Assembly (NCBI RefSeq): GCF_002283365.1
Contig: NZ_MQWD01000001.1
Span: 3,133,749-3,197,748, forward strand
DNA: 64,000 nucleotides
DNA from: Rubrivirga marina
GTDB lineage: Bacteria; Bacteroidota; Rhodothermia; Rhodothermales; Rubricoccaceae
Direction: 5' to 3'
Shown: positions 1,847 to 6,435 of the stretch, in pieces
How positions within the stretch are numbered: the first letter of the stretch is position 1
Layout: every line of letters starts with the position of its first letter
Position numbers and translations under genes: made by a program
The notes under the pieces: model-generated
The model's database searches: none
The model's input: only the letters and a program-made list of their open reading frames with translations
What the model was told of the DNA's origin: nothing

Positions 1847-1874
1847 ACTCACGATAACAGTAATTATCGAACCG
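1847..1874. other. dif-like recombination site candidate
   Basis: Two 11-bp arms flank a 6-bp centre: ACTCACGATAA, CAGTAA, TTATCGAACCG. CGATAA (1852-1857) and TTATCG (1864-1869) are an exact inverted repeat. Spacing and inner bases match the ATAA-N6-TTAT plan of XerC/XerD dif sites, although the outer bases differ from the classical consensus. It lies in a 160-bp gap, 82 bp ahead of an Xer-type recombinase gene, as in single-recombinase systems such as XerS/difSL where the site adjoins the gene. It could instead be a repressor operator. Confidence 0.5.
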
Positions 1875-1955
1875 ACCTGGAGCGAGCTCTGTCGCCTCGA
1901 TCCGTCGACGCCCGAGGCCGGCCGTTCGTAACGTGCCATTCCCCCGGACCTGACG

Positions 1956-2918
1956 ATGGACTCTCACGATCGCGCCCTCCCGGCGAGCGTCGACGCCGGA
2001 ACCCACGCTAAGCTGGGCCGCGCCTTCACGGCCCAGTCCGACCTCGTTCCGCTGTACCTGTTGCGCTACGACCGGGAGAACACCCGGCGCGCGTATGCCA
2101 AAGACCTAGAGACTTTCTTCGGGTGCGAAACGGTCACGCTGGAGATGGCGGCGTCCGTCACGTTTACGGACGTAAACGAAGCGCTGCAGACTCTAGAATC
2201 TGACGGCAAGAGCCCCGCGACACAGAGGCGATTCCTCGCGTCGCTCCGGGGGTTCTTTGGCTGGCTGGCCGCGCTGGGATTCATCGACTTGAATCCGGCC
2301 GACCGGCACCTGGTCCGCCGCATTCCCAAAACGTCCGATGCGGACCAGCTCGTGACGGTGCTGACGCGCGAACAGGCGGCGCGAATGCTCGGTGCGATCG
2401 ACATGACGAAGCCTTCGGGTGCCCGCAATTTCGCTCTCGTGACGACGCTGCTTCACTGCGTACTGCGTCGTTCGGAGGCCTCGGACATGGATGTTGAGGA
2501 TATCGGCATGGCTGGCGAGCACACAATTCTTCGGCTCAAGCGTGCCAAGGGCGGCGCGAACCAGACGGTCAAGGTTCCGGACCACGTAGCCGGAGTGCTG
2601 CGTGACTTTATACGGTCAAGTGGATACCACAGTGGACCGGTGTGGCGCTCGTTGTCAACAAACCATAGTCACGGCAAACGCCTGTCTGGATCTGCCATCT
2701 ATAAGATTGTCCGGTCGCTCGGCCGGCAGGCTGGGATCCAGGAACGAGTCGGTGCTCACACCCTCCGTCACACGGGCTGCACGCTCGCCATTGAGGGCGG
2801 CGCATCTCTGCAGCAAGTTCAGGCTCACGCTCGCCACAAAAACATAGAGACCACCATGCGCTACGTTCATCAACGGGACCGGCTGGCGAACAGCGCCGCG
2901 GACTTCATCGACCTTTAG
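1956..2918 (+). CDS. Xer-type tyrosine recombinase / integrase
   Basis: A 320-residue site-specific recombinase, the usual length for XerC/XerD. An N-terminal SAM-like core-binding domain (about 25-115, with ENTRRAYAKDLETFF) precedes the catalytic domain. All catalytic residues are present: R171 in LRRSE, K198 in the beta-hairpin KGGANQT, H268 and R271 in HTLRH, H294 in ARHKNIETT and Y303 in MRYVH. Its G+C is visibly lower than that of its neighbours, with codons such as ATA, TTA-like and CTA that are rare elsewhere, suggesting transfer or weak codon selection. The stop codon directly abuts the ATG of the next gene. The dif-like repeat upstream is its plausible substrate. It could be a chromosome dimer resolvase or the integrase of a decayed element. 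Confidence 0.88.
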   Translation: MDSHDRALPASVDAGTHAKLGRAFTAQSDLVPLYLLRYDRENTRRAYAKDLETFFGCETVTLEMAASVTFTDVNEALQTLESDGKSPATQRRFLASLRGFFGWLAALGFIDLNPADRHLVRRIPKTSDADQLVTVLTREQAARMLGAIDMTKPSGARNFALVTTLLHCVLRRSEASDMDVEDIGMAGEHTILRLKRAKGGANQTVKVPDHVAGVLRDFIRSSGYHSGPVWRSLSTNHSHGKRLSGSAIYKIVRSLGRQAGIQERVGAHTLRHTGCTLAIEGGASLQQVQAHARHKNIETTMRYVHQRDRLANSAADFIDL

Positions 2919-4451
2919 ATGGACTACGACCTGATCGTCGTTGGCGCCGGCCACAACGCGCTCATCTCCGCAGCCTATGCGGCGAAGGCGGGCTACCGGG
3001 TCGGCGTCTTCGAACGGCGGTACATCGTCGGCGGCGCCGTCTCGACCGTCGAGCAGGTGCCTGGGTACCAGTTCGACCTCGGCGGTTCTGCTCACATCCT
3101 CATTCGCCTGACCCCGATCGTCGAGGAGCTGGGCCTCGACGAGTACGGACTCGAGTACCTCGAGCTCGACCCGCTGTTCTTCGCTCCGTACGAAGACGGG
3201 TCGTCACTCTTCATCTATCGAGACGTCGACCGGACCTGCGAGCACATCGAGGCGCAGTTCCCCGGAGAAGGCGATCGCTACCGGCGGTTCGTCGAGACGT
3301 GGGCGCCGTTTTCCCAAACCGTGCGAGACGTTTTTCTGTCGACGCCCAGCCCACTCGAGCTTGGGAAGCGGTTCGCGTTCGGGAGTTCGGCCCAAGTCGA
3401 CTGGCAGAACGCGTTGTCTGTGATCATGCGGCCATACGGTGAAGTCGTCGATCAGTACTTCACGGAGGAGAAGGTGAAGGCGCCGCTCGTGTGGATGGCT
3501 GCGCAGAGCGGCCCCCCTCCTACCGAGGCCATGAGTGCGCCCTTCCTCTTGTGGCACCCCTTGTATCACGAGAGCGGGATCGCCCGGCCTCGGGGCGGAT
3601 CTGGAGGGCTCACGAAAGCGCTGGCGGCGATGATCCGTGCTCACGGGGGTGAGGTCCGTACGTCGTCCCCAGTGGACCGTCTTCTCGTTCGCAACGGGCG
3701 TGCCGAGGGCGTGGAGGTCGCTGGCGAATGCATTACCGCTCGTGCCGTTCTATCGGGGACCCACATCCTCGAGACGCTCGACCGGCTCCTGCCGAGCGAG
3801 CACCGTCCCGCCGAGGCCGACCAGATGCGGGTTGGAAACGGGTTCGGGGCCATCCTTCGCCTCGCGCTCGACAAACCTGTGGAGTACGCGGCGGCGCCGG
3901 GTATCGAGTCGCGGACGGCGCTCCAACTCATCTGCCGAGACCGCCAGCAGATCCATGACGCCTACGCCGATTACCTCAAGGGCCAGCCGGCCGAGGATCC
4001 TCCGATCGTCGGGATGAGCTTCTCCGCAGTCGACCCGACGCTGGCGCCGCCGGGCGGGGAGGTGTTGTGGCTCTGGGCCCAGTACTTCCCTTATGAAATG
4101 ACCGGCGGTCGGACGTGGGACGCCATCGAGGAGGAGGTGGCCGATCGGATCCTGGACACGTTCGAACCCTACGCACCCGGCACCAAGGCGTCGGTGGTCG
4201 GTTCCCTCTTCCAGCACCCCCTCTGGCTGGAGCGCGAGCTCGGGCTGTTCCGCGGGAACGTGATGCACCTCGAGATGACGATCGACCAGATGTTTGCGCT
4301 GCGCCCCTCGATGAATCTTAGCGACTATCGGGGCCCCGTCGACGGGCTCTTCCTCACCGGGGCCAGCATGCACCCGGGAGGTGGCATAATGGGGGCATCT
4401 GGACGGAATGCCGCCCGGGTGGTTCTTAACTTTCTCGAGTCGAAGCGATGA
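2919..4451 (+). CDS. FAD-dependent oxidoreductase, CrtI/CrtO/PYROXD2 family
   Basis: A 510-residue flavoprotein. The N-terminal Rossmann motif [19 protein letters not shown] (7-25) with a glutamate-ending second strand (VFERR) binds FAD, and the C-terminal segment [20 protein letters not shown] completes the FAD site as in phytoene desaturases, CrtO ketolases and PYROXD2. Members oxidise or ketolate polyenes or act on unknown lipids; the exact substrate cannot be read from the sequence. The gene begins at the base after the recombinase stop codon and its end overlaps the next start by ATGA, so it is translated in a coupled plus-strand operon. Confidence 0.85.
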
Positions 4452-5521
4452 GTTCCACAGACTCCCTGCGCTACTCGCGACAGATCCGCCTCCCGGACGT
4501 AGGCCTCGAGGGTCAGAAACGGCTCGCCAAGGCCGCCGTCCTCGTCGTCGGCGCCGGCGGGCTGGGCGCGCCGGCGTTGCACCAACTGGCGGCATCCGGC
4601 GTCGGGCGTGTGGGGTTCGCCGAGTTCGACCACGTCGACGTCACGAACCTCCACCGACAGACGCTCTACTCGACGAGCGACGTGGGCCGTGCGAAAGCGG
4701 ACGCGGCCCGGGAGCGGTTGGAGGCCATCAACCCGGAGGTCACCATCGAGGCCCACTCCCTCCGCCTCGGCACCGACAACGCCGAGGCGCTCCTCGCGGG
4801 GTACGACCTCGTCCTCGACGGCTCGGACACGTTCGCGACACGCTACGTCGTGAACGACGCCTCGGTGCGGACGCAGACGCCCAACGTGTTCGCCTCGGTC
4901 AGCCAGTTTTCGGGGCAGATCTCCGTCTTCGGGACGGAAACCGGGCCGTGCTACCGGTGCCTGTTTCCGGAGCCGCCCCCTCCAGACCTGATCCCCAACT
5001 GCGAAGAAGGCGGGGTCTTGGGCGTCGTGCCGTCTCTTTTCGGGACGCTTCAGGCGGCGGAGGCGCTAAAGTGGATCCTTGGAATTGGGGACCCGCTGGT
5101 GGGCCGCCTGCTCATGATCGACGCTCTGGCGATGGAGGTCCGAGAGATCGTGGTAGACCGCGATCCCGAGTGCTCCGCTTGTGGCTCCCCGCAGCACCGC
5201 CGCACGTCGGTGGCAGCAGATCCGGGCCCTGCAGAGATCACGGTCCCAGAACTTCGGTCCCTTCTCGACTCGGCGCCCCCCGTCCTCGTTGATGTGCGCG
5301 AGGCAACCGAACACCACGCAGGCAACATCGGCGGCCGACTGATCCCACTCGGTCAGCTCGACGTCCGCGCATTTGAGCTCGACGACGTACGTGACAGCGA
5401 CATCGTGGTGTACTGCGCCTCCGGGGGGCGCTCTGCGGTCGGGGCCCGGATGCTCAGGGAGCGCGGCCTTCGTGCACGATCGCTCCGTGGCGGTATGGAG
5501 GCGTGGAACGCCCTCTCGTGA
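4448..5521 (+). CDS. moeB: MoeB/ThiF-type adenylyltransferase with C-terminal rhodanese domain
   Basis: A 357-residue E1-like enzyme that adenylates the C-terminus of a small sulfur carrier protein and probably transfers sulfur to it, as in molybdopterin synthesis or tRNA thiolation (MOCS3/Uba4 layout). The adenylation domain carries GAGGLG (35-40), structural zinc cysteines C168, C171, C242 and C245, and the catalytic cysteine C185 in [10 protein letters not shown]. The rhodanese domain (about 265-355) has the active-site loop CASGGRS with C323. The start overlaps the preceding gene as ATGA, and the stop overlaps the miaA start. No carrier protein gene is adjacent. Confidence 0.88.
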
Positions 5522-6435
5522 CTCAGGCAAGGAGTCTCGTCATCGCCGGCCCCACTGCCGTCGGCAAGTCCTCGCTGGCTCACCGGCTGGCCCAGCGAGT
5601 TGGGGGCGAGATCGTTTCTGCCGATAGCCGTCAAGTCTACCGCGGCCTCGACATCGGGACGGCGAAACCGACGGAGAAGGAACGGGGGGAAGTTCGCTAC
5701 CACCTGTTGGATCGGCTGGACCTTGGGGCTCGTTGTTCTGCCGGGCGATTTTTCCGATGGGCCTTAAACGCGATAACGGACATCCAGTCGCGAGGAGCAC
5801 CTGCCATCGTCGTGGGCGGGTCAACGCTCTACGTCCACGCTCTCGTCGAGGGGATGCCCGATGTGCCTCCGATCCCTGAGGAGCTCGAAGGGGAGCTCCT
5901 GCGTGAGGCCAGGACTCCAGACGGCGCGGCGCGCCTGTTCCGAGAGCTGACAGCCGTAGACCCTGAGGCGGCCGCGACGCTGGACCCAACGAAGACGCAT
6001 CGGCTCGTGCGCTGGGTCGGTGTGTTGCGCCACACGGGGCGTCGCCCGTCTGAGGTCTGGACCGACCGCCCCTCGGCTCTACCCCTGACCTGCCTAGTGG
6101 TGCTCGAGCGGCCCAGGCCTGAGCTTTACTCGCGAATCGAGGCCCGGGTCGACCAGATGATGGCGGAGGGCCTGCTCGACGAGGCGGCTGGCCTCGCGGC
6201 GCGTAGTGCCGAGGCTAAGAGGACGCTAGAGGCGACCATCGGCTACCGGGAGCTGCTCCCGGTCCTCGCCGGCGACCGATCCCTCGAGGAGGGCATTCGG
6301 CTCATCAAACGGAACACGCGCCGCTACGCCAAGCGACAACTCACGTGGTACCGACGCTATGACGACGCGCTCTGGCTGCCGGCTGCCTCGACGGATCTCG
6401 ATGACCTGCTTGGAGGCGTCGCTCCCTGGCCGTGA
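5518..6435 (+). CDS. miaA: tRNA dimethylallyltransferase
   Basis: This enzyme transfers a dimethylallyl group to N6 of A37 in tRNAs that read UNN codons. The protein has about 305 residues. P-loop GPTAVGKSS lies near the N-terminus, followed by SADSRQVYRGLDIGTAKP, the signature of the family, and KRNTRRYAKRQLTWYRR near the C-terminus for tRNA binding. I choose GTG at 5518, which overlaps the moeB stop as GTGA; an in-frame GTG at 5503 would add five residues. Its last 79 nt overlap the convergent glycosyltransferase gene. A near-copy of the polar motif (CGATAACGG, 5771-5779) lies inside. Confidence 0.92.
   Translation: MTQARSLVIAGPTAVGKSSLAHRLAQRVGGEIVSADSRQVYRGLDIGTAKPTEKERGEVRYHLLDRLDLGARCSAGRFFRWALNAITDIQSRGAPAIVVGGSTLYVHALVEGMPDVPPIPEELEGELLREARTPDGAARLFRELTAVDPEAAATLDPTKTHRLVRWVGVLRHTGRRPSEVWTDRPSALPLTCLVVLERPRPELYSRIEARVDQMMAEGLLDEAAGLAARSAEAKRTLEATIGYRELLPVLAGDRSLEEGIRLIKRNTRRYAKRQLTWYRRYDDALWLPAASTDLDDLLGGVAPWP

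Follow-up and report, generated by a model that had tools for sequence, protein, structure and literature searches.

A probable single-recombinase Xer/dif system at the replication terminus of Rubrivirga marina and many other Rhodothermales

A tyrosine recombinase gene of Rubrivirga marina and the 28-bp inverted repeat in front of it probably form a chromosomal Xer/dif system in single-recombinase form, a reading to which, from comparative sequence analysis, we give a probability of about 85%. It looks like a system that occupies the replication terminus in many Rhodothermales in place of the two-enzyme XerC/XerD machinery. The observations that carry this reading are the conservation of site and gene together, their location at the terminus, co-variation of the two arms of the site, an intact active site, the presence of FtsK-gamma, and the lack of XerC and XerD above curated cut-offs. 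Below, the recombinase is called A and its site dif_A; two other tyrosine recombinases of the order are called B and C. The window is the whole stretch of R. marina DNA that was analyzed, 64,000 nucleotides in length. The original prediction, made from the letters of the window, already took the locus for a single Xer recombinase with its site; that reading is supported, and neither of its proposed checks that we ran (a search for XerC and XerD homologues and a comparison of the regions upstream of orthologues) refuted it.

Results

The putative site dif_A, ACTCACGATAA-cagtaa-TTATCGAACCG, lies at positions 1847 to 1874 of the window on the forward strand and consists of an 11-bp arm, a 6-bp spacer, and an 11-bp arm. 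It was assigned from its sequence, its single exact core, its conservation upstream of orthologues, arm co-variation, and the GC-skew switch. A sequence check placed the core, CGATAA-CAGTAA-TTATCG, at 1852 to 1869 within the 28-mer and counted 81 bp from the end of the 28-mer to the ATG of recombinase A at 1956, confirming the dif-like ATAA-N6-TTAT site that had been predicted ahead of the recombinase gene. Its arm and spacer sizes had been called Xer-like, and the 11-6-11 geometry and the ATAA/TTAT core are indeed those of Xer sites. By comparison of sites and by analogy with known Xer sites, the central region cagtaa (1858 to 1863, forward strand) would be where crossover occurs; it varies between lineages. 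Between an ABC ATPase gene and dif_A there is a small lipoprotein-like open reading frame of 93 amino acids (1514 to 1795) that has no Pfam match.

dif_A occurs in one copy, is palindromic and low in G+C, and lies near the replication terminus. A pattern search found the exact 18-bp core once in the 4.98-Mb host genome (11 contigs, with the window on the 4.71-Mb contig) and the reversed control pattern not at all, and the 28-mer has a G+C content of 39%, against about 0.72 in most of the chromosomal blocks that we sampled. Judged by composition, such a palindrome is only mildly unusual: with up to two mismatches allowed, shuffled versions of the 64-kb window gave a match in 27 of 100 cases (mean, 0.32). 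In the host, symmetry of the outer arm bases is poor, and 6 of 11 arm positions match overall. What sets the palindrome beyond chance is its conservation upstream of recombinase A orthologues, on which ground we rejected a chance palindrome.

Recombinase A (1956 to 2918, forward strand) is a single Xer-type tyrosine recombinase of 320 amino acids, identified by its PF00589 and PF02899 matches, its catalytic residues, its distinct clade, and its nearest folds. The SAM-like core-binding domain (PF02899) spans residues 40 to 106 (2073 to 2273, forward strand) and the catalytic Phage_integrase domain (PF00589, with conserved columns) residues 135 to 308 (2358 to 2879, forward strand). The full catalytic set is present as R171, K198, H268, R271, H294, and Y303, the last being the nucleophile by its conserved column (2862 to 2864, forward strand); the length and complete catalytic set previously ascribed to this frame are thereby verified, with all six positions intact. 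Among A homologues, the R-K-H-R-H-Y set is clearly lost only in those of Salinibacter-like genomes (G020 and G052), and the lysine is replaced in G057. A structure model of moderate quality (pLDDT, 74; pTM, 0.57), useful for fold assignment only, has XerA and XerH as its nearest solved folds. In profile comparisons the best matches of A among solved chains were 9i5v chain 14, XerA, and XerD. The first of these is labelled as the ribosome-associated translation inhibitor RaiA, and its aligned region of 270 residues reads as a tyrosine recombinase; a mix-up of labels or a RaiA/tyrosine recombinase fusion may lie behind this.

Orthologues of A were detected in 60 of 114 Rhodothermales genomes (E ≤ 1e-60), including Rubrivirga (82% over a partial sequence), other Rubricoccaceae, and further Rhodothermales such as Roseithermus, Longimonas, and Rhodothermus. 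Upstream conservation of the repeat, the check proposed with the prediction, was found across the order. Among loci drawn from a species-genome collection, 31 had enough upstream sequence available; an exact GATAA-N6-TTATC lies within 0.9 kb upstream of A in 21 loci; three more loci have a site with one mismatch, and one has a site 4 kb upstream. The motif also precedes A in other genera and families, including Salinibacter-like homologues that are 36% identical. Because GATAA-N6-TTATC averages only about 1.9 occurrences per genome, this adjacency is not a matter of chance. A minority of the genomes with A have no exact site within 1 kb, and at several A loci none was found (e.g., G026, L226).

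The genes downstream of A are conserved with it. They encode a FAD-dependent oxidoreductase (2919 to 4451), a ThiF/rhodanese MoeB-like protein (4448 to 5521), and MiaA (within 5503 to 6435), all on the forward strand and assigned from synteny and Pfam. At least one of the neighbours in the window adjoins A in 22 of 23 regions, and miaA does so in 20 of 23. From sequence comparison, these neighbours (2919 to 6435) appear to mark a vertically inherited locus and to stand outside the mechanism. The A gene is lower in G+C than its neighbours (0.61 to 0.63 versus 0.65 to 0.70), as had been predicted, and a few genomes hold extra A-like copies, as might be expected if A were the integrase of a mobile element or its remnant and dif_A an attachment site. 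We rejected such an origin as very improbable. Synteny, in the form of the conserved neighbourhood, argues against recent acquisition of A despite its lower G+C; the terminus position holds in six families; there is a single site, which no second copy flanks; and no record in the plasmid and phage collections that we searched exceeds about 35% identity. The extra copies, 43 to 48% identical to the window protein (G001:C3:2091628, G014:C230, G047, G053, and G059), may be carried by elements that take advantage of the terminus.

The two arms of the site co-vary. We compared 26 distinct sites, in which the inner GATAA/TTATC is invariant by construction, because it served as the search pattern, and the outer six arm positions are independent of it. 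The outer arms are reverse-complementary at 3.85 of 6 positions versus 2.50 after the right arms are reassigned at random to other sites, a value reached in none of 20,000 shuffles, though relatedness of the sequences inflates the co-variation somewhat. Complementary arms differ by lineage (e.g., ACTTCC/GGAAGT and ATCCCC with AGGGAT). Such co-variation is what one would expect of arms read by a single protein.

In near-complete chromosomes of seven genomes, representing six families, A lies roughly opposite dnaA, at chromosome fractions of 0.47 (G010), 0.53 (G015), 0.48 (G019), 0.53 (G020), and 0.57 (the host, G000) and at 0.53 to 0.61 in G032 and 0.46 to 0.53 in G041, the ranges arising because each of these two has two DnaA genes. 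In all four genomes for which we sampled GC skew, in blocks of 20 kb, its sign switches at the site or no more than ~20 kb from it: inside the block bearing A in both G032 and G020, at the A block in G019, and, in the host, between the blocks just before and just after the window start. The host flip is noisy, with a local cumulative maximum about 18 kb from the site. FtsK-gamma was present in all 16 genomes tested. As candidate FtsK polar sequences we found only G-rich octamers, including GGGNAGGG, polarized towards the site (314 versus 148); their polarity is in line with the general GC skew, which also explains it, and they were set aside.

The site is linked to the recombinase gene in relatives, with exceptions in Rhodothermus, where the two are 5 kb (G024), 24 kb (G035), and 74 kb (G010) apart. 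These distances bear on the proposal that the palindrome serves solely as an operator through which the recombinase gene is autoregulated, with A acting elsewhere. Its position 30 to 130 bp ahead of the A coding match in the host and many relatives is a plausible one for an operator. We nevertheless judge an operator-only role to be quite unlikely, because the site keeps no fixed distance from the gene (up to 4 kb away, and 5 to 74 kb in Rhodothermus) and is also borne by a Rhodothermus plasmid that lacks A; the locus, moreover, stays at the terminus, and the geometry and core are typical of Xer sites.

That plasmid is the 125-kb second replicon of G024, which carries a dif_A-like site, GATAAATCCACTTATC, at 114641; the G024 chromosome has another copy at 1558774. 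In both G010 and G035 the chromosome has DNA like that of the plasmid adjoining dif (L238 to L244 on the 125-kb replicon; L161 with L245 to L248; L249 to L250), a pattern that fits plasmids using dif or inserting at it. We considered dif-by-dif plasmid integration as a clean natural experiment and rejected it: the junctions are off the site and G010 has one exact site near A, so no direct proof of recombination can be claimed.

Neither in the host nor in any of 60 relatives did a XerC or XerD score above the NCBIfam cut-offs, whereas controls such as Escherichia coli and Bacillus subtilis pass; the search for XerC and XerD homologues suggested with the prediction thus returned none at these cut-offs. 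A itself falls below the cut-offs for XerC (TIGR02224; 116.9 of 335.15 bits), XerD (TIGR02225; 120.8 of 329.6 bits), XerS (NF003462; 57.7 of 267 bits), and archaeal XerA (NF040815; 116.2 of 220 bits). Its profile match to XerH (1.2e-11) is weaker than those to XerA and XerD, and it shares about 25% identity with E. coli XerC and XerD. In a tree of A, B, C, and E. coli XerC and XerD, the first three fall into one clade each, none of which includes the E. coli proteins, and the deep joins are unsure because several branches are long.

No XerC/XerD pair is found at these cut-offs, and an inactive-looking XerC-like protein, B, remains. B (L009, G000:C1:2061597-2062394, with orthologues L177 to L196 except L189) is a conserved tyrosine recombinase homologue recovered in 20 genomes and present in all families sampled; it matches XerC best and forms its own clade. 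All 20 sequences lack the first catalytic arginine and the arginine of HxxR, and the tyrosine is sometimes missing too, so that B is, judged by its residues, apparently a retained noncatalytic protein. B could be a partner of A, in which case A and B would make up a two-recombinase system with one noncatalytic member, and the system would not truly be single-recombinase. The spread of B over many families, its separate clade, and its closeness to XerC accord with that arrangement, as does the presence of exactly two tyrosine recombinases, A and B, in G032, G041, G035, G010, and G050. We think it unlikely, given that the two arginines are gone from every B sequence read, that symmetrical, co-varying arms suit one protein on both, and that B also occurs in genomes without detected A.

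C, a recombinase resembling XerD, has an intact active site and is found in many genomes without A (L134, L147, L150, L261, L263, L264, L266, and L172, in families mostly lacking A). Its site is likewise symmetrical, ATGTAACATAA-N6-TTATGTTACAT (consensus, ATGYAACATAA-N6-TTATGTTRCAT), and lies mostly within about 150 bp upstream of C, once at 0.9 kb; in some genomes it was not found. Among the 114 genomes, 42 have C, 60 have A, and 13 have both versus 22 expected, a co-occurrence below expectation (Fisher's exact P = 0.0005, ignoring relatedness). The A-type system is not universal in the order, since about 25 of the 114 show neither A nor C at these thresholds. The Salinibacter-like genomes that we read have an A without catalytic residues beside an intact C (L078, 9778 to 12311; L171, 10058 to 12201), and at these loci GATAA-N6-TTATC still precedes or overlaps the start of the degenerate A. 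We tentatively suggest, as a scenario that is possible rather than probable, that an ancestral XerC became the inactive, retained B, leaving one active recombinase; that solo modules A and C, each with a symmetrical dif, then replaced one another; that Salinibacter is in the middle of such a replacement; and that B has a noncatalytic role at the terminus.

Discussion

By analogy with known Xer systems (PMC5357621, PMC2731167, PMC5241119, PMC9765430), from which the homotetramer, synapsis, FtsK activation, cleavage positions, strand exchange, and dimer resolution are taken, a homodimer of A would bind both near-symmetrical arms of the 28-bp site. FtsK would bring the two sites of dimeric sister chromosomes together at the division septum, and the resulting A tetramer would exchange strands across the 6-bp spacer through Tyr303, resolving the chromosome dimer into monomers.

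The best reading of the sequence comparisons is that A works like XerH/difH and XerS/difSL yet stands outside the curated XerC, XerD, XerS, and XerA families. The comparison with XerS and XerH, drawn from the start because their sites are kept beside the gene, is apt to this extent. XerH/difH of Helicobacter and Campylobacter shares with A a single recombinase, a site beside the gene and near the terminus, and a palindromic, low-G+C site (PMC2731167, PMC5357621), and XerH is among the nearest solved folds. A differs in matching XerA and XerD profiles better, in its length (320 versus 354 to 362 amino acids), and in its phylum, and dif_A differs from difH as an 11-6-11 site of the GATAA/TTATC type. 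In XerS/difSL of streptococci and lactococci, too, one recombinase acts alone and its gene is linked to its site (PMC5357621); however, A scores far below the XerS cut-off, and difSL is an atypical 31-bp site. XerL/dif of Legionellales, compared by its published description, resembles the A system in serving a whole order with a single recombinase, in the long, unbroken inverted arms of its site, and in having been missed by homology searches (PMC9765430), but XerL lies >400 kb from its site in Legionella pneumophila, whereas A is usually beside its own. With XerCD/dif of E. coli and most bacteria the A system has in common a 28-bp terminus site, the ATAA-N6-TTAT core, and FtsK-gamma; it departs from XerCD in having one active recombinase instead of two and in the low identity and subthreshold scores of A against both enzymes.

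We found no description of such a system in Rhodothermales in the literature, the dif-prediction supplements of PMC3025954 lying outside that search, and this one-enzyme version of Xer/dif looks previously undescribed. Kono et al. (2011) predicted dif in 19 Bacteroidetes genomes, and their main text names neither Salinibacter nor Rhodothermus (PMC3025954). A 2017 review asks whether single recombinases arose from XerC/XerD or gave rise to them, and how organisms that lack recognizable Xer systems manage (PMC5357621). With an inactive-looking relic of the XerC type, two solo recombinases that are alternatives to each other and have a matching site each, and some genomes that have both, Rhodothermales offer a natural series in which the question of that review can be tested. 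For the order itself, the result supplies a likely dif that can serve to mark the replication terminus and that plasmids probably target.
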